Positions 2,968 through 21,828 of a stretch of DNA of 41,919 nt are shown here, in pieces. The stretch comes from Cyclobacterium xiamenense (GTDB lineage Bacteria; Bacteroidota; Bacteroidia; Cytophagales; Cyclobacteriaceae), in contig NZ_WIOK01000040.1 in assembly GCF_009467825.1 (NCBI RefSeq), forward strand, positions 1 to 41,919, given 5' to 3'. The notes under the pieces were generated by a model. It saw only the letters and a list, made by a program, of their open reading frames with translations. It searched no databases and was not told the DNA's origin. Position 1 is the stretch's first letter, and every line of letters starts with the position of its first letter. Position numbers and translations under genes: made by a program.

Positions 2968-3122
2968 GAAAGTAACCGTGTATTAAAACGAATAAATAAA
3001 ATTAATGGGATTTTTTATCAAATCCCTTACACCTAACGAAGGAAAGGTAGTAAAGATCCAATTTGCATCAAATTTCAAAAACGTTTACGGCAAGAATACC
3101 TTTTGTTTGGTAGCTTTTGTAG

Positions 3123-4181: not shown

Positions 4182-4317
4182 CCGATTATCTCACTGATTT
4201 TCTGCGATATTGTTTCAAAAAAAGAAAAAAATTCACCAAATAAATTGGAAAATACTCCTTTCTGGGCTTATTTTGCTCCATCCTTTAACTTTTTAAAAGT
4301 GAAAAGGATTTATAAAG

Positions 4318-4412
4318 AAGAGGTAAGAGACAGGCTCGTAGACCCTCTGGCAACCTGGAAAATCCAAGGTGCCAATTCCTGCCAGGTGTGAATGGTTCCA
4401 TCTGGGAATATA
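4318..4412 (+). promoter_or_regulatory. SAM riboswitch (SAM-I clan) ahead of metY
   Basis: The leader carries the two conserved cores of SAM-I-type riboswitches: GGCAACC (within 4350-4356) and AAGGTGCCAATTCCTGCC (about 4365-4382), the S-adenosylmethionine-binding junction. The short CAGGCTCGTAGACCCTCTGG segment before GGCAACC fits the compact P2 of the Bacteroidota form. It precedes metY by about 185 bases, the expected place for control of methionine synthesis by SAM. The exact boundaries and the subclass (SAM-I or a SAM-I/IV variant) cannot be set by eye. An expression platform may include the hairpin at 4483-4511. Confidence 0.85.
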
Positions 4413-4482
4413 AATTCTACAAAATGAGGCCATTTCCGGTAAACCTAAAGGATAAAATTTCCACCAAACGTATCAAAAAATG

Positions 4483-4517
4483 GCTCCACGCGTGCTATCA
4501 GGGCACGGAGCGGTTTT
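4483..4517 (+). terminator. Possible riboswitch expression platform hairpin
   Basis: GCTCC (4483-4487) can pair with GGAGC (4507-4511), and GTGC (4492-4495) with GCAC (4503-4506), giving an interrupted stem followed by GGTTTT. It lies between the SAM riboswitch and the metY start, where a regulated terminator would be expected. The T-run is only four bases, so it is a weak terminator candidate and the mechanism could instead be something else. Confidence 0.35.
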
Positions 4518-4583
4518 GCATGCGTTTCTAAGCGCCAATTCATGCGTATTCATCCCATCATTTTCATAAAAACATAGACCTAA

Positions 4584-5900
<1,317 letters not shown>

Positions 5901-5909
5901 TTTCATCAA

Positions 5910-6965: not shown

Positions 6966-6982
6966 TTGCCAAACAACCCCTC

Positions 6983-7375
6983 ATGATTCCGTACAACCGT
7001 ATCAAAGAAACCTGCCTTTACATCCCTAATCTGGATAAAGCGGTGGCGTTCTACAACGGCTTATTGGAAATGCCCCTCATTTCGAAGGTTGAAGGAAGGC
7101 ATGTTTTTTTTAGATGCGGGGATTCGGTTTTGCTGTGCTTTTTGCCGGAAGTAACCGGAAAGGAGAGCAGCCTCCCTCCGCATTATGCCCATGGGAAGCA
7201 ACACATTGCCTTCGAAGTACCGGAAGCCGATTACCTGGCTACCCGGGCGCTTCTTCGTGAAAAGGGCATCGAAATCACCCACGAACAAGACTGGGGCCGC
7301 GATCGAAATAGTTTTTATTTTGAGGACCCCTTCGGACACGTACTCGAAATCGTTCCCACTGGCATCTGGGAGTAG
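6983..7375 (+). CDS. VOC (glyoxalase/bleomycin-resistance fold) protein
   Basis: A 130-residue single vicinal-oxygen-chelate domain made of two beta-alpha-beta-beta-beta modules: the first with the NLDKAVAFYNGLL helix, the second ending in FEDPFGHVLEIVP. Possible metal ligands are Glu8 in KETCLY, the His in KQHIAFEV and the Glu in HVLEIV. The family includes glyoxalase I, dioxygenases and drug-binding proteins, and nothing here fixes the substrate. It starts 17 bases after metX and is probably read through from the methionine unit, but a role in that pathway is not shown. Confidence 0.8.
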   Translation: MIPYNRIKETCLYIPNLDKAVAFYNGLLEMPLISKVEGRHVFFRCGDSVLLCFLPEVTGKESSLPPHYAHGKQHIAFEVPEADYLATRALLREKGIEITHEQDWGRDRNSFYFEDPFGHVLEIVPTGIWE

Positions 7376-7511
7376 TCCTGGTCTCCTTTTCCATCCCATC
7401 GTTTTCCGGAAACCTTCTGCTCATCATTTGGTAACCGTTTATTTATCCCCAAGTATTGGTGATTCCCATTTCTTTTCGAATATTGCGTAAAAAACCAGCA
7501 ACGTTATACCC

Positions 7512-8291
7512 ATGGTACACCGCATTCTTCTTACCTTTCTGCTACTAGGAACCGTGTTTTTGCAGACTAATGCCCAACAAATGAACTTCCACCGCAATAA
7601 AGTAATCGCTCACCGGGGAGCCTGGAAAGCCGCTCCGCATCCTCAAAATTCGCTGGCCTCCCTGCAACAGGCAGTAGACATGGGCTGCGAAGGATCGGAA
7701 TTTGATGTATGGATGACTGCCGACGGAGTGCTGGTAGCCAATCACGATGCGGATCACGAAGGAATGGTTATTGAAGAGGTAACCTATGCCGAGCTGCTAA
7801 GAAAACCATTGCCCAACGGAGAAAAAGTCCCTACTGCCGAAGAATACATTCGGCAAGGAATGACCCAGCAGGGAACCAAACTGATCTTTGAGATCAAACC
7901 ATCCCGGATATCCAAGGAAAGAGGGCAGGAATTGGCGACAAAATCGGTGGAACTGGTGAAAAGATTAAATGCCGAAGAATGGATCGACTACATCACCTTC
8001 GATTATGACATCGGATTGCGCGTATTGGCGTTGGATCCCAATGCCAACGTGGCCTATCTAATGGGAGATAAAACACCGAAACAACTAAAAGATCATGGTT
8101 TTTTCGGTTTTGATTACAACATAAAAACCGTGAAGGAAAACCCACAATGGATCGACGAAGCACACGAATTGGGCTTGACAGTCAATGTGTGGACCGTCAA
8201 TAAGGAAGAAGACATGCAATGGCTGCTGGAAAAAAACGTGGATTTCATCACAACAGATGAGCCGGAAAAACTATTCTCCCTGATCCATTGA
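7512..8291 (+). CDS. Secreted glycerophosphodiester phosphodiesterase
   Basis: A 259-residue protein with a signal peptide (residues 1-21, cleavage after TNAQ) followed by one GDPD TIM-barrel domain. The active-site features are IAHRGAW near residue 34, NSLASL, the Glu/Asp pair in CEGSEFDVWMT, VANHD, the Glu in IFEIKPS and the C-terminal VNVWTVN strand. It would hydrolyse deacylated phospholipids such as glycerophosphocholine to glycerol 3-phosphate and an alcohol in the periplasm. The next gene, another phosphodiesterase, starts 7 bases after its stop, so the two probably act together on phosphodiesters. Confidence 0.9.
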   Translation: MVHRILLTFLLLGTVFLQTNAQQMNFHRNKVIAHRGAWKAAPHPQNSLASLQQAVDMGCEGSEFDVWMTADGVLVANHDADHEGMVIEEVTYAELLRKPLPNGEKVPTAEEYIRQGMTQQGTKLIFEIKPSRISKERGQELATKSVELVKRLNAEEWIDYITFDYDIGLRVLALDPNANVAYLMGDKTPKQLKDHGFFGFDYNIKTVKENPQWIDEAHELGLTVNVWTVNKEEDMQWLLEKNVDFITTDEPEKLFSLIH

Positions 8292-8298
8292 GCCCATC

Positions 8299-9903
8299 AT
8301 GAAACCCAATACTCCCGTATACCTGCACCTGCTACTGGGAAACCTACTGTTTCTCGCCTGCTGCATCGGGTGCCAGCCAAAGGTCCCCGAACGAAAAGTA
8401 ACCCACGCCATTCTCATCGGTCTCGACGCCTTTGGGTCCCGGGGTTTCCAAAAGGCCGAGACGCCCTATATGAATCAACTGGTTGCAGAAGGCGCCATCG
8501 CCCCCTTTGCCCGGGCCGTATTGCCGACCAACTCCTCCCCCAACTGGACCTCCATGCTCACTGGTGCCGATCCGTTGCAACACGGGGTCTATGACAATGC
8601 CTGGGAATTAGACAAGCAGCGGTGGCCGCCCGTGCTGACAACCGACAGTGGTCGGTACCCCAGTTTGTTTAACTGGATGCACGAGCAACTACCAGATGCC
8701 AACATGCAGCTGTTTTACGAATGGGGAGGACTTGCCCGTCTCTACGATTTGGACGCCGCAAAGCGGGTATACAAAGGAAGCAGTGGAGACGATGTTTTTT
8801 CGAAAGCCGTACAGGCATTTTTCGAAGAAAAACCAGATTTTTTATTCATTGATATCGACGAAATCGATCATTTCGGCCATCAGGACGGGCACGACTCCCG
8901 GGCCTATTTTAACTCCATCTCGCATTACGATAGCCTAATTGGTGACTTTGTGCAAAAATTGGAAGACGCGGGTATCATGGACGAAACATTGATTCTGATT
9001 ACCGGAGATCATGGTGGTATTGGCAAAGGGCATGGGGGAACCAGTCTGGACGAATTGGAAATCCCCATTATCCTATACGGAAAAGGAATCCAGCCCGGCC
9101 GAGTAATTGACAAGCCTTGCTATCAGTACGACGTGGCTCCTACCCTGGCATACGCCCTGGGGATAACCCCACCCAAAGCTGGCGTGGGAAGGCCGATTGT
9201 CGAAGCGTTTGATCCCTCGGTTCCTGCCGATTCATTCGCTCCCATGCCGCTGATTTTTCCTACCGGAGGATTTTTCAAACAGGACACGCTTCTGTTGGAA
9301 GTAAAATCGGATGCACCCCATGCAGAAATACGCTATACCCTGGATGGCACGGTTCCTACGGCTACCACTGGCACCGTCTATCAGGAACCCATCCACTTAA
9401 AGCGGAGCGAATTGGTTACGGCAATTTCGGTGGTCAATGGAGAGGAAAGCCGGCCTGAAATCCAACAATACCGCCTGACCACGAAGCCGGGCCGGGTCAA
9501 TTGGGAATACCTGGAAGGTACGTTTTCCCGGGTCCCTGACTTCCAGGGCCTTGTCATACAAGCCAGTGGAAAAAGCTCGGAGATCAGCCTCGAAGAAATC
9601 CCACACCGGGAAGACCACTTCGCTGTACGCTATACCGCCACACTTGTGGTCCCGACCGAAGGTCAGTATACCTTTTACCTACAATCCGACGATGGAAGCC
9701 TTTTGTACGTGAATGGGGAACTGCTCATTGATAACGACGGCTCTCATTCTGCAGCGGAAAAAAGTAACACCCTTGAACTGGTTGCCGGCAAACAAGAACT
9801 GGAAGTTCGTTATTTCGAGGACATCGCAGGAGAAACACTCCAGTTGTTTATTTCCGGCCCCGGTATTCCCCGACAGCTGGTATCTGCAGACTTTTTTGAG
9901 TAA
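8299..9903 (+). CDS. Lipoprotein phosphodiesterase of the alkaline phosphatase fold with PA14 domain
   Basis: A 534-residue protein. The N-terminus has a hydrophobic stretch ending in LACCIGCQ, a lipobox-like site, so it is probably membrane-anchored. Residues about 35-300 are a type I phosphodiesterase/nucleotide pyrophosphatase domain: LIGLDAFG (metal Asp), a probable nucleophile Ser79 in PTNSSPNWTSMLTG, DIDEIDHFGHQDG and TGDHGGIGKGHGG (metal His/Asp). About 310-395 resembles the small beta-sandwich found at the C-terminus of chitobiase-type enzymes (EIRYTLDGTVPT), and about 400-534 is a PA14-like domain (YTFYLQSDDGSLLYVNG), a carbohydrate-binding module. The order suggests an enzyme acting on phosphodiester substituents of a glycan or surface polymer. 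It ends 34 bases from the convergent racemase gene. Confidence 0.85.
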   Translation: MKPNTPVYLHLLLGNLLFLACCIGCQPKVPERKVTHAILIGLDAFGSRGFQKAETPYMNQLVAEGAIAPFARAVLPTNSSPNWTSMLTGADPLQHGVYDNAWELDKQRWPPVLTTDSGRYPSLFNWMHEQLPDANMQLFYEWGGLARLYDLDAAKRVYKGSSGDDVFSKAVQAFFEEKPDFLFIDIDEIDHFGHQDGHDSRAYFNSISHYDSLIGDFVQKLEDAGIMDETLILITGDHGGIGKGHGGTSLDELEIPIILYGKGIQPGRVIDKPCYQYDVAPTLAYALGITPPKAGVGRPIVEAFDPSVPADSFAPMPLIFPTGGFFKQDTLLLEVKSDAPHAEIRYTLDGTVPTATTGTVYQEPIHLKRSELVTAISVVNGEESRPEIQQYRLTTKPGRVNWEYLEGTFSRVPDFQGLVIQASGKSSEISLEEIPHREDHFAVRYTATLVVPTEGQYTFYLQSDDGSLLYVNGELLIDNDGSHSAAEKSNTLELVAGKQELEVRYFEDIAGETLQLFISGPGIPRQLVSADFFE

Positions 9904-9937
9904 GTCCCGATAGTGAAATTGATCGGTGCGGTGCTCG

Positions 9938-11095
9938 TCAGCGAACCACCGTACGTGGAATGGCTGCAGGGAGGCGACTAAGCATCTCGTTGTTTAGCAA
10001 TTGCGTGACATTGGTAAAGCTGGAAACGTTGATCACGTTATTGTTTTGCCGCCCGATCAATACCACTTCTTCGCCTACATTCACTCCTGTGATGTGGCTA
10101 ATATCAACCATAAACAAGTTCATGTTAATCAAACCCACGATGGGTGCTTTCTTTCCACGGATGAGCACCTGCCCACGGTTGGATAAGGCCCTGGGGTAGC
10201 CATTGGAATATCCCAGCGGAAGCACCGCAATCGTCATTTTTTGTGTGGCCTGAAATGCGGTACCGTAGCCAATAAATTCCCCTTCATTCACTTCCCGAAT
10301 ATCCATCACATCTGTCTTCCAGCTGAAAATCCGTTTCAAAGAAGTATCGGCTTTTTTGTTGGTCTCGTGCAAATGGGAAAAATAGATATCCGGACTGGGC
10401 CAGAATCCATACTGGGCCACACCTATCCGAACCAGGTCGTAGACGGTATCTTTCATCGCCAATGCAGCCGCCGAACAGGCAATGTGCCGCAACTGAGGCA
10501 AGAATTTTTTTTCTTTGCACTGCCGGAGAAATTCCTTGTAGCGTTTGTGCTGCCGATCGATTTTAAATTGATTGCTTGCACTTTCCGCTCCACCAAAATG
10601 GGTACACAAGCCTTCAAAAATGAGCCAGTCGGTATTTTTTTTGAGGTAGGCAAGCGCTTTGGGAAACTCCTTGGTGTGCATTCCGGTTCGATTGGCGCCC
10701 GTTTCTACCTCCAGGTGTATTTTTGCTTTTTTCCCAACCCGCTTTGCGGCTTCCAATGCCTTCGGCAAGCGGTCAAAGTAATAGACAAAAAAAGCTATTT
10801 CATGAGATATTGCCCACTCCAGATCCTCTTCGTAGATGATACCCATGATCAGAATCTCACTTTCCAGCTTGCAAACCTGCAATACCTGTTCTGCCTCAAA
10901 CGAGGAAGCCACGCAAAAATGATTGATTCCACAGCGTTCGGCCATAGGTACGAAGGACTCAATCCCGTGGCCATAGGCATTTGCCTTGACCACAGAAGAG
11001 AGTATGGGTTTCTCACCTATTTTTTTACGGATAAAGTTAACATTGCTCTTATAGGCACTTTGTTTTAATTCAATTCTTGACGAATGTTTTACCAT
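9938..11095 (-). CDS. alr: Alanine racemase-like PLP enzyme, last gene of the ATP-grasp operon
   Basis: A 385-residue fold-type III PLP racemase. Lys37 in SVVKANAYGHG is the PLP lysine, Tyr277 in EFIGYGTAF the opposite acid-base residue, and Arg223 in RIGVAQYG the residue that contacts the pyridine nitrogen. The usual GR(I/V)xMD segment is changed to VGLINMNLFMVDIS, and GYxDGYPR to GYSNGYPR. Its start overlaps the stop of the 665-residue gene by 7 bases, so it is almost certainly translated from the same transcript. In Bacteroidota the cell-wall alanine racemase is usually fused to MurF, so this stand-alone copy may be a specialised amino-acid racemase. Substrate is not shown by the sequence. 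Confidence 0.85.
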   Translation of the reverse strand: MVKHSSRIELKQSAYKSNVNFIRKKIGEKPILSSVVKANAYGHGIESFVPMAERCGINHFCVASSFEAEQVLQVCKLESEILIMGIIYEEDLEWAISHEIAFFVYYFDRLPKALEAAKRVGKKAKIHLEVETGANRTGMHTKEFPKALAYLKKNTDWLIFEGLCTHFGGAESASNQFKIDRQHKRYKEFLRQCKEKKFLPQLRHIACSAAALAMKDTVYDLVRIGVAQYGFWPSPDIYFSHLHETNKKADTSLKRIFSWKTDVMDIREVNEGEFIGYGTAFQATQKMTIAVLPLGYSNGYPRALSNRGQVLIRGKKAPIVGLINMNLFMVDISHITGVNVGEEVVLIGRQNNNVINVSSFTNVTQLLNNEMLSRLPAAIPRTVVR

Positions 11096-13086
11096 TGTTT
11101 TTTAATTTCCAACCATGTATAAGATTTCCCCCAGCTATCTTTGGCCAACTTTCTGACTTTGTCCACTTCCTTCTGAGGAATTGTTTCCATTTTGGAAGCA
11201 GCTTCCAGGTTATTGTAATGAAAGGCATACACCCTGGCGGCAAACTGATAAATAGGCAGGGACGATTCTCCGTGAATTTCTCCCTTTCCGTACACTGAGG
11301 GCTTGATCTCCTGTCCCCAATCCTGTCGGCCTTCGTTGTTGGGGTTTAGGAAATAGGCGCGAACAACGCCGGAAGGATCCTCGTCCACCCGAAGAAGCGA
11401 GACGGCGTGGAAGCCCAGCATTTCGCCTTTGGCCGAGGTGATAAAAATCCCGACGGGATTGGGATATACCAGGCGGTGGCCACCGTTGAAACGTGGATGG
11501 CACATCGTGTAAAACACACGCACAAATCCATCAAAATCGACAATGGCATTTGAAAGGTAGTCGTAAGCGGAGGCAAATCCGATTTGGATCCATTGTCCGT
11601 ACAATCCTGGATTTACCCATTTATGTGGATCCTCTCCCCGCCCGGACGCCCTTCGCATCATCTCGTTATACACCCTGTCAAGCATGGGCACCAGTGTTAC
11701 GGATACCGCATCCAGGTGGTGATCCAGGTTTTGAACCAATCCGGCAGGCGTGGTGGAATAGCTGATTTCCTGACCCTCAAAACGGAAACTGAGATTATCG
11801 TATACCGCTGCCGTTTGTACCATATGAATCAACTTTGCCGGGGCATGCTGGCTCCACATGCTTATGCCCCGCGCACTCTGACATGTGGGGTTATTTCCCT
11901 GTCCTACCCCGAGCGGCTGTCCCAGAATGCGAAAAAGGGCTCCAATCAAGTACTGTTTGGGCGTTACTTTTTCGTGGGGTGTTCGGGTGGATTTCAGGAT
12001 GCGACGGGCGACTTCGGGATGAACGGTGATCTTGGTCAAGTTGAAAAGACCGGAGCGAACCGCTTCCCGCGAAATAATACCATTCTCGAGCATTTTCGCC
12101 AGACCAAAAATACATTGGGCGTTGAAGGGATGAATTACCTGTAAAATCAAGAAACAGACAAAATCCTTGAACTCATTAAACCGCGCAAGACCGGTTGGAT
12201 TCAGGCCCAAACAAACCGGTATCAATTCCTGGTAATCCTTTTTCACCAGGTGCACCAATAACACCGCCTGGTAGGTACTGACTAATCCGAACTGCAACAT
12301 ACTGTTTCCCAACGCACTGGCCTCTTCCTCGAGTGTTTCAATTTTCATTCGGTTAAGCGCTTTTCCATAAGCCAGGTGATCCTTTCCCGCTACTCCCGGG
12401 GAGGGTTTGTAAATCACTCGCTGGAAAGCCAATAGTTCCATATCGGCCGGATCATCCGGATTCAGCTCAATTTTCTCCTTCACCAACGCAATGATTCGAC
12501 GCTGTTTTTCTGTAACTACCGGGCGCTGTTCACAAATAAGGGTTAACTCTTCTACCAACTTGGACTTTACTTTTGAAAGCTCAATTTTTTCCAAAATAAA
12601 CTGGAAAAGTGCATGAACCTTGGTGAGTTCATGCGCACTCATGGCGAGGCGGGTCTCCTCTTGGGGTTCGTTGAAGACAAACTCCAAGTTGTGCACCAGT
12701 ACTTCCTGGAGGTAGCTGTCCGCTTCCTCCTGCTGTTCCTCACTGCCTGCGATCTCTCCTTCCAGCAATGCAAGCATACGCAGCTCGCTCAGGAGTTCGA
12801 TGGTAGAATTGGGGTGACCACTTTTGTAGGTGCCATTGACCAATTGGGGCACCAGCTTATCCGGGTGTTCCCAGGGACCGCCTTTGAAAATTCCTGCTTC
12901 GGTTAGGTCAGGAATGCGTTGGTAAACCTCACGGATTCCCTGTAGTGTCCCACACCAGGTATCCAATTGCCCCATAATTTTCTGGGCTTTCTCCCCTCTC
13001 GTCAGCGATGTAGCCGACTTATAATTCTCAAACAACTCGTCAAAAGACGCGAGATTGCTTTCTGAGATCACTCCTTCTTCTTGCAT
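11089..13086 (-). CDS. Unrecognised 665-residue protein with a predicted papain-like C-terminal half
   Basis: I do not recognise this family by name. No signal peptide or membrane segment is seen. Residues 1-380 look mostly helical and charged. The C-terminal half has the order expected for a papain-fold cysteine enzyme: Gln396 six residues before Cys402 in QGNNPTCQSARG (the same spacing as papain Gln19 and Cys25), then His560 in GFHAVSLLRVDED at the start of a hydrophobic strand, then Asn581/583/584 before a Trp-Gly in NPNNEGRQDWG. This would be a Cys-His-Asn triad, either a protease, an amidase or an acyl/peptidyl transferase. It is the middle gene of an operon: 25 bases after the ATP-grasp gene and overlapping the racemase by 7. 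The papain assignment is my inference from motifs. Confidence 0.8.
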   Translation of the reverse strand: MQEEGVISESNLASFDELFENYKSATSLTRGEKAQKIMGQLDTWCGTLQGIREVYQRIPDLTEAGIFKGGPWEHPDKLVPQLVNGTYKSGHPNSTIELLSELRMLALLEGEIAGSEEQQEEADSYLQEVLVHNLEFVFNEPQEETRLAMSAHELTKVHALFQFILEKIELSKVKSKLVEELTLICEQRPVVTEKQRRIIALVKEKIELNPDDPADMELLAFQRVIYKPSPGVAGKDHLAYGKALNRMKIETLEEEASALGNSMLQFGLVSTYQAVLLVHLVKKDYQELIPVCLGLNPTGLARFNEFKDFVCFLILQVIHPFNAQCIFGLAKMLENGIISREAVRSGLFNLTKITVHPEVARRILKSTRTPHEKVTPKQYLIGALFRILGQPLGVGQGNNPTCQSARGISMWSQHAPAKLIHMVQTAAVYDNLSFRFEGQEISYSTTPAGLVQNLDHHLDAVSVTLVPMLDRVYNEMMRRASGRGEDPHKWVNPGLYGQWIQIGFASAYDYLSNAIVDFDGFVRVFYTMCHPRFNGGHRLVYPNPVGIFITSAKGEMLGFHAVSLLRVDEDPSGVVRAYFLNPNNEGRQDWGQEIKPSVYGKGEIHGESSLPIYQFAARVYAFHYNNLEAASKMETIPQKEVDKVRKLAKDSWGKSYTWLEIKKQW

Positions 13087-13111
13087 AAAATTGGTTTACT
13101 TAAACTCGATT

Positions 13112-14332
13112 CTAGTGATAAAAATCCACATTTTCGTAATGCAGCAATAATTCTGTCATCCGATCGGGATCCTCTCCCTTAAAATTGACTGTTCCAAAAT
13201 GGTTGCCAAAGCCTTCCCGATCGCTAATTTTCTGGCTGCTTAATGGCGGTACCAGGTTGTGATCCAGAAAATAGGACTCTTCCTTCAATTCTTCTGGAAT
13301 CACCAATTTGGAAATCTGATTTTTATGTGGGTAAATCATCACATTTCCATAGAACGTTTCGGGCCGCGCATCCAACGGAGGCAATAGTTGTTGCAATTCC
13401 TCTTCGGTAAGCTCGGGATCGTGGCACATAACGAACGCAGCCAGTGCATCAAAGCCATAGGCCTGACCGCAAAGTTCAAGAATGTGCCCGCCGGGAATCC
13501 GGCATGCCACCTCTCCAAAGCTCAATTCATCGTTTTCTGTCAAAAACCATTCGGGATGGATCATGCCGTATTGAATACCAAATAAATCAACCAGCTTTTG
13601 CATTTCTTTCAATATCTTCTCCCTTTTGGTATGTAGGTAATTTCCCTCGGGGATAAAGTTGGAGTACCCAAGCTTTACGTATTCGGTGATATTCATAAAC
13701 CGGATTTTCCCACCGTGGATAAATGCCTCACAGCTGAATTCTCGTCCGGGCAAATGGCTTTCCGCCAGACAGGGGAATTCATCGTCCTGGCATTTGGTAT
13801 CGATATCGGATTGTGAGCGCAGCAACCGGTGTCCGACCGTTCCCGCCGAAGCAAATGGCTTGATGTGAACCCAACTGTCCTCTTCTCCGTCAATTTGCAG
13901 GTTGGCCTGGTTGAGCCTATTCATGAAGTTTTTAACACCCTCTTTGTTGTATACCTCTTCAAAAAGTCCTACCCGCAATCCGCCGATCAACGCTTTTCTT
14001 TTCATCATCGCTTTGTTTCGAAAAAGGAAAGCCCGATTCAACACCCGGGGATCATCCCGGTACAGGGAATTCAGTGCCCCAGCCCATTCCACCGTTTCTT
14101 CAAAGAGAGGAACCGCCACGTCTGCACCGAAGGCATCCAATTTTACCTTTAAATCCAGCGAATTCGACGAATCGCTCCATTCATTAAACGCGTAAGAAAC
14201 AAACGGAATGCTGTGCTCCTTCGCATATTCCTCAAAATCCGGGTAAGAAACTACCACATACGGTTTGTTGAGCTTTTGCATACTTTCTATGACGGGCAAA
14301 CTCCAGCCCATTAATGCAAAACATTTTGCCAT
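13112..14332 (-). CDS. ATP-grasp family carboxylate-amine ligase
   Basis: A 406-residue ATP-grasp protein. Residues 1-95 form a Rossmann-like preATP-grasp domain (AKCFALMGWSLPVIESM, with VAVPLFEET). About 105-300 is the ATP-grasp core: Lys107 in FRNKAMMKRKA, Lys158 in WVHIKPFASAGT, acidic residue Glu261 in IHPEWFL, and Glu274 with Arg278 in GEVACRIPGGH, the metal and phosphate-binding pattern typical of the carbamoyl-phosphate-synthetase-like and amino-acid-ligase branch. The family activates a carboxylate as acyl phosphate and joins it to an amine. It is the first gene of the operon with the papain-like protein and the racemase, which points to a peptide or amino-acid conjugate. No substrate can be assigned. 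Confidence 0.85.
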   Translation of the reverse strand: MAKCFALMGWSLPVIESMQKLNKPYVVVSYPDFEEYAKEHSIPFVSYAFNEWSDSSNSLDLKVKLDAFGADVAVPLFEETVEWAGALNSLYRDDPRVLNRAFLFRNKAMMKRKALIGGLRVGLFEEVYNKEGVKNFMNRLNQANLQIDGEEDSWVHIKPFASAGTVGHRLLRSQSDIDTKCQDDEFPCLAESHLPGREFSCEAFIHGGKIRFMNITEYVKLGYSNFIPEGNYLHTKREKILKEMQKLVDLFGIQYGMIHPEWFLTENDELSFGEVACRIPGGHILELCGQAYGFDALAAFVMCHDPELTEEELQQLLPPLDARPETFYGNVMIYPHKNQISKLVIPEELKEESYFLDHNLVPPLSSQKISDREGFGNHFGTVNFKGEDPDRMTELLLHYENVDFYH

Positions 14333-14576
14333 TTCGTTTTATCTGTTTGGTTCAACTAGTCCATGCAACAAAAAACAGGCTAAAGTCAATTTATAGAAAA
14401 ATTTAAAAAAAACTTCCTAATAAAATGAATAAATGTCTTTAAATAATTAAAAATATAACCATTAATTTAAATTTATACCTTTAATTAATCCTGAGAAATT
14501 CAAGAAGCAAAACGACTGGCATTGCATAGAACAAGACCGCTGCATGGCCGACTGCAATATCTGGGTCCAAAATTTG

Positions 14577-14584
14577 TATATTTG
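14577..14584 (+). promoter_or_regulatory. Candidate -7 promoter element (TATATTTG)
   Basis: TATATTTG matches the Bacteroidota -7 consensus TAnnTTTG exactly and faces the arginine cluster. No convincing -33 TTG is seen about 19 bases upstream, so the promoter call is tentative. It is overlapped by the palindrome at 14579-14592. Confidence 0.35.
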
Positions 14585-14592
14585 ATCAAATA
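14579..14592. promoter_or_regulatory. Candidate operator, 14-base perfect palindrome
   Basis: TATTTGATCAAATA is a perfect inverted repeat that shares six bases with the candidate -7 element. A dimeric repressor bound here would block that promoter. It could serve the arginine genes on the right or the ATP-grasp operon on the left. It does not match the classical ARG box closely, so the regulator is unknown. In AT-rich DNA a palindrome of this length can also arise by chance. Confidence 0.35.
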
Positions 14593-14615
14593 AATAAATA
14601 TTTGTATGGTTTAAA

Positions 14616-14726
14616 ATGAAAAAAGAAACGCACATAGCATCCAACCCCTACCTGGCCCATACGAATCTTTTTGGGTATCCGGTTCTGTTTCCTTTAAAGA
14701 CCTTTCGGACTGTTTTCAGGGCATAG
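14616..14726 (+). CDS. Small 36-codon ORF, possible leader peptide
   Basis: An ATG 32 bases after the candidate -7 element opens a 36-residue frame (starts MKKETHIASNPYL, ends TFRTVFRA) that stops at TAG 14724-14726. The last seven codons contain two arginines, and the stop codon lies inside two mutually exclusive short stems followed by a T-rich run, which recalls a transcription attenuator. The number of arginine codons is low and the stems are short, so this may be chance. No homolog is known to me. Confidence 0.25.
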   Translation: MKKETHIASNPYLAHTNLFGYPVLFPLKTFRTVFRA

Positions 14727-14743
14727 TCCCTGTCTTATTTTTA
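14717..14743 (+). terminator. Weak attenuator-like hairpin
   Basis: CAGGG (14717-14721) pairs with CCCTG (14728-14732) and is followed by TCTTATTTTTA. An alternative stem GGACT (14707-14711) with AGTCC (14725-14729) would exclude it. The arrangement is that of a terminator/antiterminator pair at the end of the small ORF, but both stems are only five pairs. Confidence 0.25.
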
Positions 14744-14869
14744 TGTATCCTACGTGGATGCATCCATTTCGAAAGCACGTATACACTCATTTCAACCAAA
14801 CCTTCTTCGGGCTGTTCGCCGGAAAGCACTTCAAAATTGAAATGCGAATAAGCCCCAATCCATGTTGCC

Positions 14870-15571
14870 ATGTCGAACCAGAAATTTACAATAAAACCCG
14901 CATCGGGAGAGCACGGTCATTACGCTGAGATCATTACTCAGGAAATGGAACGTTCGGCACAAGCCCGGGGTACAGGAATCGCCAAAAGGTCTCCCGAATA
15001 CATTCGGACAAAAATGAATGAAGGAAAAGCAGTAATCGCACTTACCAAATCGGGAGAATGGGCGGGGTTTTGCTACATCGAAGCCTGGGGACACGGAAAG
15101 TTCGTGGCCAATTCGGGGCTGATTGTTGCGCCGGAATTCAGAAAGCACGGATTGGCCAGAGAAATAAAACGAGAAGTCTTTAAGCTTAGCCGAAAAAAAT
15201 ACCCCGATGCCAAGATCTTCGGGCTCACAACCGGGGCAGCCGTTATGAAGATCAACTCCGAATTGGGCTACTATCCGGTAAGTTATTCGGACCTTACCAC
15301 CGATGACGATTTTTGGAAAGGATGCCAAAGCTGCGTGAATTATCCCATTCTCATGAGCAAAAACCGATCAAACTGCTTGTGTACGGCCATGCTCTACGAA
15401 CCTAAAAGCGTAAAAAAGGCGGAGCAAAAGAAGCTTTCCTCGGAATTTAAAAAGAATCTCAGCCTTTTTGAACGATTGATTAAAATCAAACGGGCCATGT
15501 TTCTTAATATTGCCAAAGGAAAGCGAAATGCACTGGCGAAGGTCAAAGGAAAAGTAAATCAATCATCCTAA
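14870..15571 (+). CDS. GNAT-family N-acyltransferase, candidate first enzyme of arginine synthesis
   Basis: A 233-residue GNAT protein. The acyl-CoA-binding motif is visible in VAPEFRKHGLAREI (about 84-97), followed by the typical FGLTTGAAVMKINSELGY segment. The C-terminal 60 residues are basic and outside the core. It is the first gene of the arginine cluster, 45 bases before argG. Bacteroidota lack the classical argA and argJ in this cluster, and the GNAT at this place is the usual candidate for N-acylation of glutamate (acetyl or succinyl). That role is inferred from position; the acyl donor is not shown by the sequence. Confidence 0.8.
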   Translation: MSNQKFTIKPASGEHGHYAEIITQEMERSAQARGTGIAKRSPEYIRTKMNEGKAVIALTKSGEWAGFCYIEAWGHGKFVANSGLIVAPEFRKHGLAREIKREVFKLSRKKYPDAKIFGLTTGAAVMKINSELGYYPVSYSDLTTDDDFWKGCQSCVNYPILMSKNRSNCLCTAMLYEPKSVKKAEQKKLSSEFKKNLSLFERLIKIKRAMFLNIAKGKRNALAKVKGKVNQSS

Positions 15572-15616
15572 GTCAAAAGTTGCTCGCGGCGACGTTTGCA
15601 AACAGTAAGATACATT

Positions 15617-16813
15617 ATGAAAAAAGTAGTTTTAGCATACAGCGGTGGATTGGATACCACATTTTGTGCCATTTATTTGAGTCAGGAAAAAGGCTACGAG
15701 GTACATGCGGTACTAGTCAATACCGGTGGTTTTGCGCAAGAGGAATTGGAACGTATTGAAGAGCGGGCCAAAAAATTAGGCGTAGCTTCGTTTAAAGTAT
15801 TGGATGTAACCCAAACCTACTACCAGGAGGTACTCAAGTACCTGATTTTCGGCAACGTACTGAAAAACCAAACCTATCCGCTATCGGTCAGTGCCGAACG
15901 GATCCTACAGGCCAAAGCACTGGCAGAATACGCCAAAAGCATCGGAGCAACCGCTGTGGCTCACGGAAGTACCGGGGCGGGTAATGATCAGGTTCGGTTT
16001 GATATGATCTTTCAAACCATCCTTCCCGAGGCGGAAATCATAACGCCCATCCGGGACCTCAAATTGAGCCGGGAAGAGGAGATCAGCTACCTCAAGGAGC
16101 ATCAGGTGCACATGAATTTTGAAAAAGCGGCCTATTCCATCAACAAAGGGATTTGGGGCACGTCTGTGGGGGGTAAGGAGACACTTACCTCGGATCAGGC
16201 CCTGCCGGAAGAAGCCTACCCTACCCAGGTGAGCAAAACCGATCCCGAAATTCTTCGCATTGGTTTTGAAAAAGGTGAGATCAACCGGGTGAATGGAGCG
16301 TTTTTCGCAGATCCGGTAGCCGCGATAATAAAAATACAGGAAATTGCCGGTCCTTTCGGTATCGGGCGAGACATTCACGTAGGCGATACGATCATCGGCA
16401 TCAAGGGCCGTGTGGGTTTCGAAGCAGCTGCTCCACTTGTCATTATTAAAGCACACCAGCTGCTGGAAAAACACACCCTGACCAAATGGCAGTCCTTTTG
16501 GAAAAACCAGCTGTCGGAATTTTACGGAAACCACCTGCACGAAGGCCATTACCTTGATCCGGTGATGCGAAATCTGGAAGCATTTATGGCAGCGACCCAA
16601 ACCTATGTAACCGGGGAAGTGAACGTTCAATTGATGCCCTACCGCTTTAGCATGATCGGTATTCATTCGGACCACGATCTCATGTCGGCAAAGTTTGGCA
16701 GCTATGGAGAGATGAATAAAGGCTATACAGCGGAGGACGTGAAAGGATTTACCCGAATTCTTGGCAATCAAACCGCTATTTTTCACAGCGTAAACCAGGA
16801 AAAGGATGATTAA
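15617..16813 (+). CDS. argG: Argininosuccinate synthase
   Basis: A 398-residue ATP-dependent ligase that joins citrulline and aspartate. The PP-loop SGGLDTTF lies at residues 9-16 and the family-typical segments STGAGNDQVRF and GIWGTSVGG follow. I chose the ATG at 15617 because the protein then begins MKKVVLAYSGGLD, as in the family; a frame open from TTG at 15596 would add seven residues with no family match. Its last 8 bases overlap the start of argC, which implies translational coupling. Confidence 0.96.
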   Translation: MKKVVLAYSGGLDTTFCAIYLSQEKGYEVHAVLVNTGGFAQEELERIEERAKKLGVASFKVLDVTQTYYQEVLKYLIFGNVLKNQTYPLSVSAERILQAKALAEYAKSIGATAVAHGSTGAGNDQVRFDMIFQTILPEAEIITPIRDLKLSREEEISYLKEHQVHMNFEKAAYSINKGIWGTSVGGKETLTSDQALPEEAYPTQVSKTDPEILRIGFEKGEINRVNGAFFADPVAAIIKIQEIAGPFGIGRDIHVGDTIIGIKGRVGFEAAAPLVIIKAHQLLEKHTLTKWQSFWKNQLSEFYGNHLHEGHYLDPVMRNLEAFMAATQTYVTGEVNVQLMPYRFSMIGIHSDHDLMSAKFGSYGEMNKGYTAEDVKGFTRILGNQTAIFHSVNQEKDD

Positions 16814-17768
16814 AACCGGAATCGTTGGAGCCGCTGGCTATACCGGAGGTGAACTCATTCGCCTGCTCGTTCACCATCCCCAGGTGTCGTTGGAATGGAT
16901 CCATAGCAATAGTCAGCAGGGCAAACCGGTGGTGGCCGTACATCCGGATTTAATTGGCGATTCGGAATTGGTTTTCACAAATCAGATTGATACCAAAGGT
17001 CTGGATCTGGTTTTTCTCTGCTTGCCCCATGGTGAAGCCCGGCCTTTTCTGGAGCAGCATACCTTTGGGCAAGAAACAGTCATCATCGATCTAAGTACCG
17101 ATTTTAGGGACGAGTCGCAGGGCTTTGTCTATGGATTGCCCGAGGTGAATGCCTCCCGTATCAAACAGGCGAAGCGAATTGCAAACCCAGGTTGTTTTGC
17201 CACGGGTATTCAGCTGGCTCTGGCACCAGCAGTGAAGGAAGGTTGGTGCGCGGGCCCCTTACACGTCACCGGCATCACGGGAAGTACCGGCGCCGGCAAG
17301 AAACTTAGCCCCACTACCCATTTTAGCGAGCGGACCCAAAACGTATCGGTATACAAACTGTTTACCCACCAGCACCTGAAGGAAATCAACCAAACCTTTG
17401 GCCAGTTGGACTCCGATTTCCATGGACAGGTGTTCTTCGTTCCGTACCGGGGAAATTTTGCCCGGGGCATTTGGGTGACGGCGTATTTTCCTTACAGCGG
17501 CACAGAAGAAGCAGCCCTAGAAGCTTATGCCCATTTCTATAGTCAAGCTGCCTTTACCCATGTGACCCAGCAGGACCTGGACCTCAAGCAAGTAGTCAAC
17601 ACCAACAAATGCCTCGTCCACCTCAAAAAGGAAGCGGGACAGTTGGTGATTTACTCGACCATTGATAACTTGTTGAAAGGAGCCTCCGGGCAGGCGGTCC
17701 AAAACATGAACCTGGCCTTTGGGTTGGACGAGAAACTGGGATTGCAATTGAAAAGTGTGGCGTTTTGA
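16806..17768 (+). CDS. argC: N-acyl-gamma-glutamyl-phosphate reductase
   Basis: A 320-residue NADPH-dependent reductase that converts N-acyl-glutamyl phosphate to the semialdehyde. The Rossmann motif GAAGYTGGELIRL begins the protein, and the active-site Cys130 lies in ANPGCFATG. Length and motifs fit the single-domain ArgC of the non-fused type. It is followed by argD after 41 bases. Confidence 0.96.
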   Translation: MIKTGIVGAAGYTGGELIRLLVHHPQVSLEWIHSNSQQGKPVVAVHPDLIGDSELVFTNQIDTKGLDLVFLCLPHGEARPFLEQHTFGQETVIIDLSTDFRDESQGFVYGLPEVNASRIKQAKRIANPGCFATGIQLALAPAVKEGWCAGPLHVTGITGSTGAGKKLSPTTHFSERTQNVSVYKLFTHQHLKEINQTFGQLDSDFHGQVFFVPYRGNFARGIWVTAYFPYSGTEEAALEAYAHFYSQAAFTHVTQQDLDLKQVVNTNKCLVHLKKEAGQLVIYSTIDNLLKGASGQAVQNMNLAFGLDEKLGLQLKSVAF

Positions 17769-17809
17769 AAAACGACGTCAGTACCAAATAAAAACTTAAC
17801 CTTCGACCA

Positions 17810-18967
17810 ATGAAGCCATTTGATGTATATCCATTGATGCAGGTAACGCCTGTAAGAGCGGAGGGCGTGTACCTTTGGGATGAGGACGGAAACCGGTACC
17901 TGGATTTGTACGGCGGACATGCTGTCATTTCTGTAGGGCACAGCCATCCTCACTTTGTGGCAAGTCTGCGCAATCAGCTGGAAAAAATTGCCTTTTACTC
18001 CAATTCGGTACGCATTCCCCTACAAACCGAATTTGCCACCAAACTGGGGCAGCTATCCGGATACGAGTCCTACGATCTTTTCTTATGTAATTCCGGGGCT
18101 GAAGCCAATGAAAATGCGCTCAAACTTGCCTCGTTTCGAACAGGAAAAGCAGGCGTCATTGCCTTTAAAGGAGCCTTCCACGGAAGAACGTCCGGAGCAG
18201 TGGCGGTCACCGATAACCCAAAAATTGTTGCCCCCTTTAACGCCGGACATCGGGTGTTTTTTGAAGAAATGGATGATCTCGAGGCGGTCGAACATCGCCT
18301 GAAAACCGAAGAGATCGCTGCCATTCTTATCGAAAGCATACAGGGCGTGAACGGCATTCACGTTGCTCCCCCTGACTTCTTGCAGGGGCTTTCCGCATTG
18401 GCCAAAAAATACGACGCCTGCTTTATTGTAGACGAAGTGCAGGCGGGTTATGGAAGAACCGGTAAGTTTTTTGCCCACCAATGGACAGCTGGACTGGAGC
18501 CGGACTTAATTCCGATCGCAAAAGGGATGGGAAACGGATTTCCCATTGGAGGGGTTTTGATCCATCCCGATTTTCAGGCCCGCCACGGGTTGCTGGGGAC
18601 TACTTTTGGTGGAAACCACCTGGCCTGCGCGGCAGGGCTGGCGGTATTGGAAATCATCGAACAGGAAGATTTAATGGAGAACGCAATACAGCAGGGGGAT
18701 TTCCTGACGGAAGCCCTGTCCACGGAGTTTCCTGCTATTTCTTCGGTGCGCGGCAAAGGCCTGATGATCGGGTTTGATCTCCGGGAAGAAGCCGCACCCT
18801 TCCGCTCCAAACTGGTCAAAAATCACCGCATCTTTACCGGCAGTGCCGCCAGCAAAGAAACCATTCGTCTCTTGCCTCCTTTGGGCATTCAACGGTCGGA
18901 TTTACAGGAATTCCTCAGCAGTCTTAAACAAGTAACCGAACAAAAAGCCGACCCGATAAAACCATGA
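17810..18967 (+). CDS. argD: N-acylornithine aminotransferase
   Basis: A 385-residue class III aminotransferase (PLP) that makes N-acylornithine from the semialdehyde with glutamate as donor. Landmarks are the phosphate loop CNSGAEANE (93-101), FHGRTSGA, Asp208 in FIVDEVQAGYGRTG, and the PLP lysine Lys238 in PIAKGMGNGFPIGG. The stop overlaps the argF' start by 4 bases (ATGA). The same enzyme may use acetyl- or succinyl-ornithine, since family members are often promiscuous. Confidence 0.95.
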   Translation: MKPFDVYPLMQVTPVRAEGVYLWDEDGNRYLDLYGGHAVISVGHSHPHFVASLRNQLEKIAFYSNSVRIPLQTEFATKLGQLSGYESYDLFLCNSGAEANENALKLASFRTGKAGVIAFKGAFHGRTSGAVAVTDNPKIVAPFNAGHRVFFEEMDDLEAVEHRLKTEEIAAILIESIQGVNGIHVAPPDFLQGLSALAKKYDACFIVDEVQAGYGRTGKFFAHQWTAGLEPDLIPIAKGMGNGFPIGGVLIHPDFQARHGLLGTTFGGNHLACAAGLAVLEIIEQEDLMENAIQQGDFLTEALSTEFPAISSVRGKGLMIGFDLREEAAPFRSKLVKNHRIFTGSAASKETIRLLPPLGIQRSDLQEFLSSLKQVTEQKADPIKP

Positions 18968-19905
18968 AGAACTTTACACAATTTGATACACGTACCCTCG
19001 CCGACTCCCTGATCGATAAAGCCCTGGCATGTAAAGCATCTCCCCTGGAACATCAGGAAAAGGGGAAAGGGAAGCGTCTGGGATTGATTTTCTTAAACCC
19101 CAGCCTACGGACCAGGGTGAGTACGCAACTTGCCGCTTCCAATCTGGGGGTGGAGAGTTTTGTACTAAACATGGACAAAGAAACCTGGGCTCTGGAGATG
19201 CAGGATGGGGTATTGATGAATAAAAACAAGGTGGAACATATCAAAGACGCGGCGGCTGTGTTGGGCGGCTATTTTGATTTTCTGGCCATTCGTGCATTTC
19301 CCTCCCTGACGAATAAAGAAGAAGATACCGAGGACTTTATCATCAATCAATTTATCCGCTACTCCGGCATCCCGGTGATCAGTTTGGAAAGCGCCATCCG
19401 ACACCCCTTGCAAAGCCTGGCGGACATGGTCACGATTCGGGAGAATTTTCAGGAAAAAAGAAAGCCAAAGGTGGTACTCACCTGGGCTCCACATATCAAA
19501 TCCATCCCACATGCCGTCGCTAATTCCTTTTCCGAATGGGCGCTGGGCTGCGGCCATGACCTGACCATCACGCACCCGGTGGGCTACGAGTTGGACGAGC
19601 AATTTACCCAGGGGGCGACCATTGAATACGACCAAAACAAAGCCCTGGAAGACGCCGATTTCGTCTATGTGAAAAACTGGAGCGCGTTCAATCCTTATGG
19701 GAAAATTCTGAAAGTAGACGAAAACTGGCTACTCAAAGAAAGTAAGTTCAAAAAAAATTCCAAGGCCAGGGTCATGCATTGCTTACCCGTGCGCAGGAAC
19801 CTGGAACTCAGCGACGAAATACTGGATGGTAGCCGAAGCCTGGTACAGAATCAAGCCAAAAACAGAATATTCGCCGCACAGGCGGTAATCGATTCGCTGC
19901 TATAA
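18964..19905 (+). CDS. argF': N-acylornithine carbamoyltransferase, probably N-succinylornithine-specific
   Basis: A 313-residue transcarbamylase of the AOTCase/SOTCase branch that carbamoylates N-acylated ornithine. The carbamoyl-phosphate loop reads NPSLRTRVS (45-53), and HPLQSLADM and MHCLPVRRNLELSD complete the active site. The position that sets acyl specificity (Glu92 in Xanthomonas acetyl enzyme, Pro90 in Bacteroides succinyl enzyme) appears to be Val90 in NKNKVEH. Published swaps of that Glu to Pro, Ser, Ala or Val gave succinylornithine activity, so this protein is predicted to prefer the succinyl substrate. The alignment is by eye. It is 11 bases from argB. Confidence 0.93.
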   Translation: MKNFTQFDTRTLADSLIDKALACKASPLEHQEKGKGKRLGLIFLNPSLRTRVSTQLAASNLGVESFVLNMDKETWALEMQDGVLMNKNKVEHIKDAAAVLGGYFDFLAIRAFPSLTNKEEDTEDFIINQFIRYSGIPVISLESAIRHPLQSLADMVTIRENFQEKRKPKVVLTWAPHIKSIPHAVANSFSEWALGCGHDLTITHPVGYELDEQFTQGATIEYDQNKALEDADFVYVKNWSAFNPYGKILKVDENWLLKESKFKKNSKARVMHCLPVRRNLELSDEILDGSRSLVQNQAKNRIFAAQAVIDSLL

Positions 19906-19916
19906 ATCCCCATACC

Positions 19917-20717
19917 ATGGAAATCAGTGTTATCAAAATTGGGGGAAACGTCATCGACCATCCGGAAAACGCCAGCCGTTTCCTCCAGCTTTTTGCAAAA
20001 TTTCCGGGAAAAAAAATCCTGGTTCATGGAGGAGGGGTGCTGGCCAGCCGGATCGGAAAGGCTATGGGTATCGAACCTCAAATGTACCGGGGACGACGCA
20101 TTACCGACAGGGAAACACTGGACCTGGTCACCATGGTATATGCCGGACTAATCAACAAAAACCTGATTGCCGAATTGCATACGTACGGCCAGCAAGCCAT
20201 CGGACTTACCGGAGCAGACGGCAATGCCATACAGTCGGTCAAAAGACCGGTAACGGACGTGGATTATGGCTATGTGGGGGACGTGGTGCAGGTAAACACG
20301 CAGCTATTGGAGTCTCTTTTGCAACCATCCATTGCACCGGTGTTTTCTGCGATAACGCACGACGGCAAGGGGCAGTTGCTCAACACAAACGCCGATACAA
20401 TTGCCTCCGAGATCGCAACCGCTTTGGCCCGAAAACACAAAGTAAACCTCTACTACTGTTTTGATAAAACCGGCGTACTCATGGATGCCAACAACGATGC
20501 TTCACTGATTCCCCTTATCAACGAGGACATATACAAAGAATTACTGCGGGATCAGATCATTCATTCCGGCATGATACCCAAACTGGAAAACGCATTTAAT
20601 GCACTGGCCAAAGGGGTTGTCCACGTATGGCTGGGCTTGCCGGAAAACCTGCTGCTGGCATCCAAAGGTAAAAATGCCGGCACCATCATTGAGTCCCAAA
20701 AGTACGGGCTATACTGA
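19917..20717 (+). CDS. argB: N-acylglutamate kinase
   Basis: A 266-residue amino-acid kinase that phosphorylates the gamma-carboxylate of N-acylglutamate. Visible are the ATP-site KIGGNVID at the start, the glycine-rich loop LVHGGGVLASRIGKAMGI, GRRITDRETLD, GLTGADGNAI, and the C-terminal SGMIPKLENAF. There is no N-terminal helix of the arginine-inhibited hexameric type, so feedback inhibition may act elsewhere. It lies 25 bases before argE in the same operon. Confidence 0.94.
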   Translation: MEISVIKIGGNVIDHPENASRFLQLFAKFPGKKILVHGGGVLASRIGKAMGIEPQMYRGRRITDRETLDLVTMVYAGLINKNLIAELHTYGQQAIGLTGADGNAIQSVKRPVTDVDYGYVGDVVQVNTQLLESLLQPSIAPVFSAITHDGKGQLLNTNADTIASEIATALARKHKVNLYYCFDKTGVLMDANNDASLIPLINEDIYKELLRDQIIHSGMIPKLENAFNALAKGVVHVWLGLPENLLLASKGKNAGTIIESQKYGLY

Positions 20718-20742
20718 GCCCGCCACCTAAACAACTGCCTCA

Positions 20743-21828
20743 TTGGAATCCATCGAACAACTGTATACCGAAGCCATTCACTTACTCAAAGACCTGATCC
20801 GCACCCCGTCGCTGAGCCGGGAAGAAGACGGAACGGCGGCGATTATCCGATCCTATCTTGAAAAAAAGGGAATTAACTGCCACCAAAAAGGGAACAATAT
20901 ATGGTGCTATGCGACGAAATACAACCCAAGTCTACCGACGGTCCTCCTGAATTCCCACCACGATACGGTCAAACCCAATCAGAGCTATAGCCTGGATCCA
21001 TACGAGCCCCTGGAAAAAGAAGGGAAACTATTTGGCCTGGGATCAAACGATGCAGGAGGCCCCTTGGTCGCACTTATTGCTACATTTATATACTTTCACG
21101 AACAGCAACTGCCGGTAAACCTCCTGCTGATTGCGTCGGCCGAAGAAGAAATCAGCGGAAAAGGCGGAATCGAATCCCTGATCCCGGAATTGCCGGAAAT
21201 GAGCCTGGCCATCGTAGGCGAACCTACACTACTAAAACTGGCGGTGGCAGAAAAAGGGCTGATGGTCATTGATGCCCGGGTAAAAGGCCGTCCCGGCCAT
21301 GCGGCCAGAGAAGAAGGACTGAATGCCATTTACGAAGCCCTGGACGATTTACTGGCCATACGGGACTTTCGCTTTCGCAAGGTTTCTCCATACCTGGGAC
21401 CCAGCAAGGTCTCGGCCACCATCCTACAAGCGGGCTCCCAACACAACGTGGTCCCCGACGTATGCACCTATACCCTGGATGTGCGGGTGACCGATGCCTA
21501 CACGCTGGAAGAAGCACTGGAGGAAATCAGGCAAGTGGTAAAGGCCGACCTTCACCCCCGCTCCATGCGCTTGCGCCCGTCCCGAATCAGCCAGACACAC
21601 CCCTTGCTGCTGGTGGCCAGGTCCATGGGATTGGAGACCTATGGCAGCCCTACCCTGTCAGACCAGGCCTTAATTCCCTACCCATCTGTGAAAATAGGGC
21701 CGGGAGATTCCGCGAGATCCCATACCGCCGACGAATACATCCATACCGACGAAATCAAGGAGGGTATTTCCCTGTACATTTCACTATTGGAAAATTATTT
21801 TTCCCACCTAATCCAGACAAACGCATGA
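20743..21828 (+). CDS. argE: N-acylornithine/N-acylcitrulline deacylase (M20 family)
   Basis: A 361-residue M20 metallohydrolase. Metal ligands lie in LNSHHDTVKP (His), GSNDAGGPL (Asp), EEEISGKGG (Glu pair) and VGEPT, with a dimerisation lid domain in the middle. In a pathway with argF' the substrate should be N-acylcitrulline, which is deacylated to citrulline for argG. The start is a TTG at 20743; no ATG lies nearby in frame and the first residues MESIEQLYTEAIHLLKDL fit the family. Its last bases overlap argH by 4. Confidence 0.92.
   Translation: MESIEQLYTEAIHLLKDLIRTPSLSREEDGTAAIIRSYLEKKGINCHQKGNNIWCYATKYNPSLPTVLLNSHHDTVKPNQSYSLDPYEPLEKEGKLFGLGSNDAGGPLVALIATFIYFHEQQLPVNLLLIASAEEEISGKGGIESLIPELPEMSLAIVGEPTLLKLAVAEKGLMVIDARVKGRPGHAAREEGLNAIYEALDDLLAIRDFRFRKVSPYLGPSKVSATILQAGSQHNVVPDVCTYTLDVRVTDAYTLEEALEEIRQVVKADLHPRSMRLRPSRISQTHPLLLVARSMGLETYGSPTLSDQALIPYPSVKIGPGDSARSHTADEYIHTDEIKEGISLYISLLENYFSHLIQTNA

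Follow-up and report, generated by a model that had tools for sequence, protein, structure and literature searches.

A conserved three-gene module in relatives of Cyclobacterium, plausibly an ornithine-dependent conjugate pathway

Introduction

What would a cell make, or take apart, with three adjacent genes for an ATP-grasp ligase, a large protein with a papain-like domain and an Alr-family racemase? The question is raised by a stretch of 41,919 nucleotides from Cyclobacterium xiamenense (the window, contig C41 of the source genome, labelled G000), for which an earlier note, made from the letters alone, suggested that such a trio could make, tailor or recycle a peptide with a D-residue. We give roughly even odds, a probability of about 0.5, to the reading that the trio is a cytoplasmic pathway that builds, and perhaps recycles, an ornithine-containing dipeptide or conjugate and in doing so consumes free ornithine.

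Results

Layout and conservation of the trio

The open reading frames reproduce the layout that had been described: all three genes lie on the minus strand, with a gap of 25 bases between the ligase gene and the gene of the middle protein, MID (13087-13111), and an overlap of 7 bases between the MID and racemase genes (11089-11095). In this genome, the trio is divergent from an ordinary arginine cluster (Table 1).

Table 1. Features of the window and of related loci
Feature	Location	Strand	Length	Basis
ATP-grasp ligase, predicted L-amino-acid-ligase branch	13112..14332	-	406 aa	
MID: all-helical N-terminal ~390 aa and predicted C-terminal papain-like domain	11089..13086	-	665 aa	
Alr-family fold-type III PLP racemase, predicted specialised paralogue	9938..11095	-	385 aa	
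Q396...C402 codons: candidate oxyanion Gln and nucleophile Cys	11881..11901	-		MID alignment
H560 codon: candidate catalytic His	11407..11409	-		MID alignment
N581 codon: candidate catalytic Asn	11344..11346	-		MID alignment
Divergent intergenic region between trio and arginine cluster; presumed promoter region	14333..14869	.		ORF positions
Ordinary arginine cluster (GNAT, argG, argC, argD, acetylornithine-type carbamoyltransferase, argB, ArgE-like M20)	14870..21828	+		context, outside trio
Nine-gene ornithine-related stretch, symporter run and argBDCJ	L090 (G682) 92-9821			
Fourth gene	L043 11140-11982; L046 11143-11961; L051 11101-11901; L085 12181-12948			
Conserved 36-base block	before ligase: L046 6513, L089 12002, L096 7773, L066 7238; before argB: L092 13413, L099 4849			

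The earlier note had named scattered homologues in other genomes as what would speak against a joint pathway. Instead, ligase, MID and racemase genes follow one another in this order on one strand at 50 of the 56 loci fetched (48 distinct MID proteins), a count that includes some genomes fetched twice and leaves out the short loci L001-L020, so the proposal was not refuted on this point. Across L001-L055, where L001-L020 partly duplicate the genomes of L021-L054, all three genes are present at 50 of 55 loci, always in the same order; the MID-racemase overlap measures 7 bases at 49 of these 50 complete loci and 4 bases at L018, and the gap between ligase and MID genes ranges from 7 to 234 bases. 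L061, L062 and L063, which are more distant, keep the order but have short gaps between all three genes. The arrangement is more than chance.

Among the 56 loci there are six exceptions to the full trio. Three are contig ends, namely L067 and L068, which are one gene split over two contigs, and L040; two, L053 and the Halomonas locus L055, have ligase and MID genes with no racemase gene beside them; the sixth is L087. At L087 (genome G510) the MID frame is open at 5871-7853, with neither ligase nor racemase adjoining. The L055 protein (Halomonas PA16-9, 7947-10031) is a MID relative of 35% identity whose C-terminal end diverges after about query residue 612, possibly through a frame change in the record.

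Searches with MID gave matches in 19 of 59 relatives, at 34 named genome loci and in one plasmid record; by this protein, Cyclobacterium is the closest named relative of G000. In the order sample 14 of 341 genomes carry MID, and in the phylum sample 5 of 395, one of these five matches being a fragment of 22 bits whose genome is absent from the ArgJ list. Many Cyclobacterium relatives have the trio, a module that is conserved but patchy in its distribution. Spread by plasmids was considered and set aside, the only plasmid record being that of Halomonas PA16-9, as were a defence system, for which PADLOC gave no match, and a phage origin, for which there were just two PHROGs matches, both with E >0.09, and no viral-contig relatives. 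Among the matches listed in the full-text literature that was searched, a scope that takes in few subscription papers, no description of the trio was found.

In the Marinoscillum loci L043 and L046 and in L051 (Ekhidna), a fourth gene follows the racemase gene with an overlap of one to four bases; L085 and L086, two loci that group with those of Marivirga, have one that looks similar by eye within 20 bases 3' of the racemase gene. The encoded protein has 255-280 residues and, by eye, one apparent membrane segment; the two that were tested had no family match over cut-off.

The ligase and the racemase

The Pfam model ATP-grasp_4 matches the ligase below its cut-off, and its closest solved structure by sequence is RizA. 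The nearest folds to its structure model (pLDDT 78.5) are 3vot (presumably the B. licheniformis ligase BL00235), RizA and BacD/YwfE, with the purine enzyme 4dim ranking third; the ligase is nearer to L-amino-acid ligases than to PurK, PurT or biotin carboxylase. The acidic residues of its HPEWF and GEVACRIPGG motifs, which we take to serve the metal and ATP sites, align with those of HLEIY and GEIAMRIGGG in RizA, and E261 and E274 are invariant in alignment A5. The loss of a metal-binding Asn, considered as a peculiarity of the ligase, was dropped, as RizA shares the GE-x-A-x-R pattern. Sequence and model thus point to the L-amino-acid-ligase branch of the ATP-grasp enzymes as the closest. RizA itself forms dipeptides with N-terminal arginine (PMC9321006).

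The trio racemase scores 285.7 bits against TIGR00492 (cut-off 168), and both catalytic residues, Lys37 and Tyr277, are present in 43 of 43 aligned trio proteins, which were taken from 52 by leaving out duplicates and those shorter than 370 residues. Three positions of Geobacillus Alr that we assume to lie at the substrate site are changed: N203 is Cys in 42 and Ser in one of the 43, and C311 and D313 are each Asn in all 43, as they are in 10 of 11 and 11 of 11 Alr2 proteins, respectively. G000 carries three Alr-type genes over the cut-off, a MurF-Alr fusion (C37), the trio gene and Alr2 (C40, beside an M20 amidohydrolase gene). When 43 trio and 11 Alr2 sequences are placed in a tree with one MurF-Alr, the trio and Alr2 enzymes form two clades with support of 0.965 and 0.926; as there is a single outgroup sequence, the tree speaks to their separation and not to placement among all Alr. 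These features suggest that the trio racemase is a specialised Alr paralogue, its substrate-site residues differing from those of canonical Alr.

Because G000 carries the separate MurF-Alr fusion, a housekeeping role for the trio racemase, which the earlier note had listed as a finding that would count against it, is unlikely. The fusion also bears on a role in the cell wall, in which the trio would provide a D-residue or bridge peptide for peptidoglycan and the ArgJ operon would feed ornithine lipids or peptidoglycan. An amide ligase and a racemase for D-amino acids do share one operon, and mur genes could lie near the trio, since identities were assigned to only a minority of the clustered neighbours, but housekeeping D-Ala can be provided by the fusion, and we regard this role as highly improbable.

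The middle protein

MID exceeds no family cut-off in Pfam, NCBIfam, PADLOC or PHROGs. Curated peptidase families gave no assignment either, the only Pfam match being DNA_pol_A at 11.1 bits, below cut-off, and NCBIfam giving none; by sequence, no convincing solved relative was found. Across 56 aligned rows, Q396 is present in 55, C402 in 54, H560 in 55 and N581 in 55, the remainder being gaps, so that all rows with letters are invariant and show the Gln-Cys-His-Asn order of clan CA. The spacing of six between Q396 and C402 is that of Q19 and C25 in papain. In the structure model (pLDDT 81.8) the N-terminal part is helical, and the best meaningful matches of the C-terminal part are calpain protease cores. 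Fold-match scores are modest, with no Foldseek match at E 0.001 and an unrelated helical repeat in the top VIA row, and for this reason the papain assignment rests on the invariant residues. Together with the weak calpain match, they predict a papain-like C-terminal domain. The three enzyme classes named from the letters therefore hold up: an ATP-grasp enzyme, here of the L-amino-acid-ligase branch, an Alr enzyme over the TIGR00492 cut-off and a papain-like protein.

The nearest solved structures to MID by fold include, beside the calpain cores, a bacterial dipeptidyl aminopeptidase. This would suit a cell in which MID plays the leading part: as a cytoplasmic peptidase or amidase it would scavenge peptides containing D-residues or basic ones, and the ligase would serve salvage. 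However, the ligase is more conserved than MID (mean column identity of 81% in alignment A2 versus 59% in A1) and the co-occurring ornithine operon is anabolic, which makes scavenging a quite unlikely main function.

Association with ArgJ and the arginine route

ArgJ, identified by TIGR00120 over its cut-off and by the Pfam ArgJ model, tends to occur where MID occurs. Among the 59 relatives, MID and ArgJ are each present in 19 and together in 18 (overlap by eye). The order sample has MID in 14, ArgJ in 17 and both in 12 of 341 genomes (one-sided Fisher 1.3e-16); by genus, MID occurs in 11 and ArgJ in 10 of 121, and every ArgJ genus also has MID (8.7e-14). These Fisher values ignore common descent, and the relatives and order samples overlap. 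MID stands without ArgJ in G721, G733 and G024, and ArgJ without MID in 5 of 17 genomes of the order sample and in G029. In the phylum sample ArgJ is over cut-off in 152 of 395 genomes, nearly all of them without MID; of the four genomes there with a clear MID, three pass the ArgJ cut-off, and the match in the fourth, G161, is truncated by a contig end.

Of 47 MID loci, 6 have argJ within the flank that was fetched; these six fall into three genus-level groups: L043, L046 and L047 (Marinoscillum) with L045; L066 of G045; and L062 of G282, which has the opposite order. L045 comes from a MAG filed as Rickettsiales and clusters with the Marinoscillum loci. All of argB, argD, argC and argJ are clustered in five of the six; argB is missing in the L045 cluster. 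In the four loci whose arrangement was inspected (L043, L046, L062 and L066), argB-argD-argC-argJ follows after one extra gene past the trio in L043 and L046, lies about 54 bases 3' of the racemase gene in L066 and lies 5' of the ligase gene in L062. In G000, the ArgJ operon (L076) is on another contig than the trio. The pathway proposed in the earlier note is thus supported in its enzyme classes and in the co-conservation of its genes, and the link to ornithine lies outside the operon, where it could not be seen from the window.

Arginine synthesis through acetylornithine carbamoyltransferase bypasses free ornithine. The carbamoyltransferase of the window (18964-19905) scores 279.5 bits against the N-acetylornithine carbamoyltransferase model NF003384, just below its cut-off of 288, and 127.3 bits against the ornithine carbamoyltransferase model TIGR00658 (cut-off 280.85), so that by sequence it resembles the acetylornithine rather than the ornithine type. 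N-acetyl- and N-succinylornithine carbamoyltransferases are both named in PMC6022934. The ArgE-like M20 enzyme of the ordinary arginine cluster may release some ornithine. Ornithine carbamoyltransferase is over its cut-off in 2 of 13 genomes, both trio-bearing (G161 and G266); it is absent at that threshold from 9 of 11 trio genomes and present in 13 of 14 control genomes. In G045, a closed genome with a single 3.3 Mb contig (C1) in which trio and argBDCJ are contiguous, the carbamoyltransferase match is weak and split (94 and 34 bits) and is probably PyrB; this organism is a possible arginine auxotroph.

The Orr-like locus

An Orr-like gene is present in 62 of the 341 order genomes (in G670 at just 198 bits), including all 14 with MID and all 17 with ArgJ; 48 have no MID. 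It was found in 21 of 21 MID genomes versus 4 of 9 chosen MID-less genomes, three of these four being ArgJ genomes. Within the 62 Orr-positive genomes the association of MID and ArgJ persists (12 shared, p 2e-7). Four Orr-like proteins score 323, 301, 339 and 317 bits against NF040742 (Orr), whose cut-off is 480. Around 15 fetched Orr-like genes we counted a symporter gene 14 times, GNAT 13 times, M20 10 times and Alr2 9 times, with families checked on examples. A symporter-GNAT-M20-Alr-Orr-like run stands immediately 5' of argBDCJ in G682, and in G282 an ornithine aminotransferase gene (667 bits) shares its stretch with the Orr-like gene.

The Orr locus is wider than trio and ArgJ, which would suit a compound made by some species and usable by more. 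A compatible-solute version of the ornithine pathway builds on this: its product would be an osmolyte, and the symporter-GNAT-M20-Alr2-Orr locus would import and degrade it. In keeping with such a role, many hosts belong to taxa that, to judge by their names, are marine, saline or alkaline, a Na+/solute symporter and an M20 amidohydrolase gene adjoin the Orr-like gene, and the M20 protein resembles DoeB2. This likeness, at 164-191 bits, falls far under the cut-off of 550, however, and among the matches listed in the literature searched we found no paper on such a solute; we consider an osmolyte unlikely.

The same distributions can be turned against ornithine altogether, if the trio makes a dipeptide or conjugate unrelated to it and the ArgJ operon and Orr-like locus are accessory genes co-inherited in the same lineages. 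The width of ArgJ in the phylum, the greater frequency of Orr-like genes than of the trio, the Halomonas ligase and MID without Alr, and the 41 of 47 trio loci with no argJ in the fetched flank (some flanks being short) all agree with this. Co-inheritance fits less well with argJ adjacency in three genus-level groups and two orders, with the genus-level overlap, in which the 10 ArgJ genera all recur among the 11 MID genera, and with the scarcity of ornithine carbamoyltransferase in trio genomes, so that we find an ornithine-free product conceivable but doubtful.

Upstream elements

At the gathering threshold, Rfam has no match near the trio in the eight loci tested or in the window, the divergent intergenic region included. 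A regulatory RNA before the trio was accordingly set aside; matches elsewhere were limited to tRNAs (five), one DUF805b RNA and a SAM riboswitch. The riboswitch (RF00162, 78.3 bits) lies at 4307-4416 of the window on the plus strand, 5' of genes that by eye resemble those of an O-acetylhomoserine-type sulfhydrylase and a homoserine acetyltransferase.

By eye, a 36-base block, TTATTCTAAG-N16-CTAANGGATT, recurs 5' of the ligase gene in Marinoscillum, G045, G682 and G662 and 5' of argB in L092 and L099, about 181-196 bases before the ligase start and about 195 bases before argB. A first scan gave 15 matches versus a shuffle mean of 7.0 at the same threshold, with a consensus biased by its inclusion of the argB sites. 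With a matrix from ligase sites only, scanned over 1290 upstream regions, argB of L092 comes first after the ligase regions, at 15.9 bits against 13.9 for the highest among 2614 shuffles; argB of L099 is third at 10.2 bits, under the four best shuffles. The trio of the window is outside the 30 best matches. For this reason, and because the L092 and L099 genomes share a genus, we treat the block as a lead only.

Discussion

The trio is real, conserved and without a family name, and it is plausibly an ornithine-dependent conjugate pathway. In the ornithine reading, the ligase would turn the carboxylate of one amino acid into an acyl phosphate, the way RizA does with arginine, and join a second amino acid to it; among possible substrates, ornithine is the likeliest. 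A D-residue would come from the Alr paralogue, acting by itself or together with an Orr-like enzyme encoded elsewhere, and the papain-like MID would mature or recycle the conjugate by hydrolysing or transferring the amide. No signal peptide is seen by eye in the trio proteins, which is where our placement of the pathway in the cytoplasm comes from, and we infer rather than observe the D-configuration that the earlier note had proposed for the peptide. The ligase, racemase and MID steps could each be wrong independently. Against the ornithine reading stand the commonness of ArgJ without the trio, the sub-cut-off scores of the Orr-like proteins, the ornithine carbamoyltransferases of G161 and G266, the racemase-free L053 and L055, and the solitary MID of G510.

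Taken further, and tentatively, this would be a Bacteroidota pathway, with mostly marine or saline names among its hosts and a two-gene form in Halomonas, whose product, either a dipeptide or a cyclised conjugate containing D-ornithine, would probably serve as a compatible solute. Here a dedicated argBDCJ operon would supply the ornithine, the new papain-like family would carry out the last step or recycling, and the symporter-GNAT-M20-Alr2-Orr locus would import and degrade the product; as a whole, this fuller scheme is more doubtful than probable.

If the ornithine pathway is correct, it would explain why genomes that route arginine via N-acylated ornithine keep a second operon for free ornithine, would give a function to a large protein family nameless in Pfam and NCBIfam, and would extend the small group of dipeptide pathways built on ATP-grasp enzymes by an ornithine branch. 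It lends itself to direct testing: the three proteins appear to be soluble, and there are two candidate substrates.

Each component has a known counterpart from which it departs. The window ligase shares 14-19% identity with the L-amino-acid ligases RizA (rhizocticin), 3vot and BacD/YwfE (bacilysin) and scores 9.8 bits against the BacD model NF053745 (cut-off 850); we know of no papain-like partner or racemase beside the genes of these ligases. The trio racemase keeps both domains of Alr (TIGR00492), its two catalytic bases (Lys and Tyr) and all further PLP-site residues that were checked, but differs near the substrate site by D313 to N, C311 to N, N203 to C and R309 to L, the MurF-Alr of the same genome also being without R309; the two enzymes are about 27% identical. 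The Orr-like protein of the associated locus matches Orr (NF040742) over nearly its full length, but below the curated cut-off, and its gene sits with those of the symporter, GNAT, M20 and Alr2. With calpain and papain-like cysteine proteases of clan CA, MID has in common the Q-x5-C, H and N set and a weak fold match. Glutathionylspermidine synthetase/amidase (GspSA) unites, in one fused protein acting on one amide, an ATP-grasp ligase of a different family from that of the trio and a papain-fold CHAP cysteine amidase. In the trio the genes are separate, Pfam gives no GSP synthase or CHAP match, and a racemase is added; like GspSA, however, it pairs an ATP-grasp ligase with a papain-like protein.
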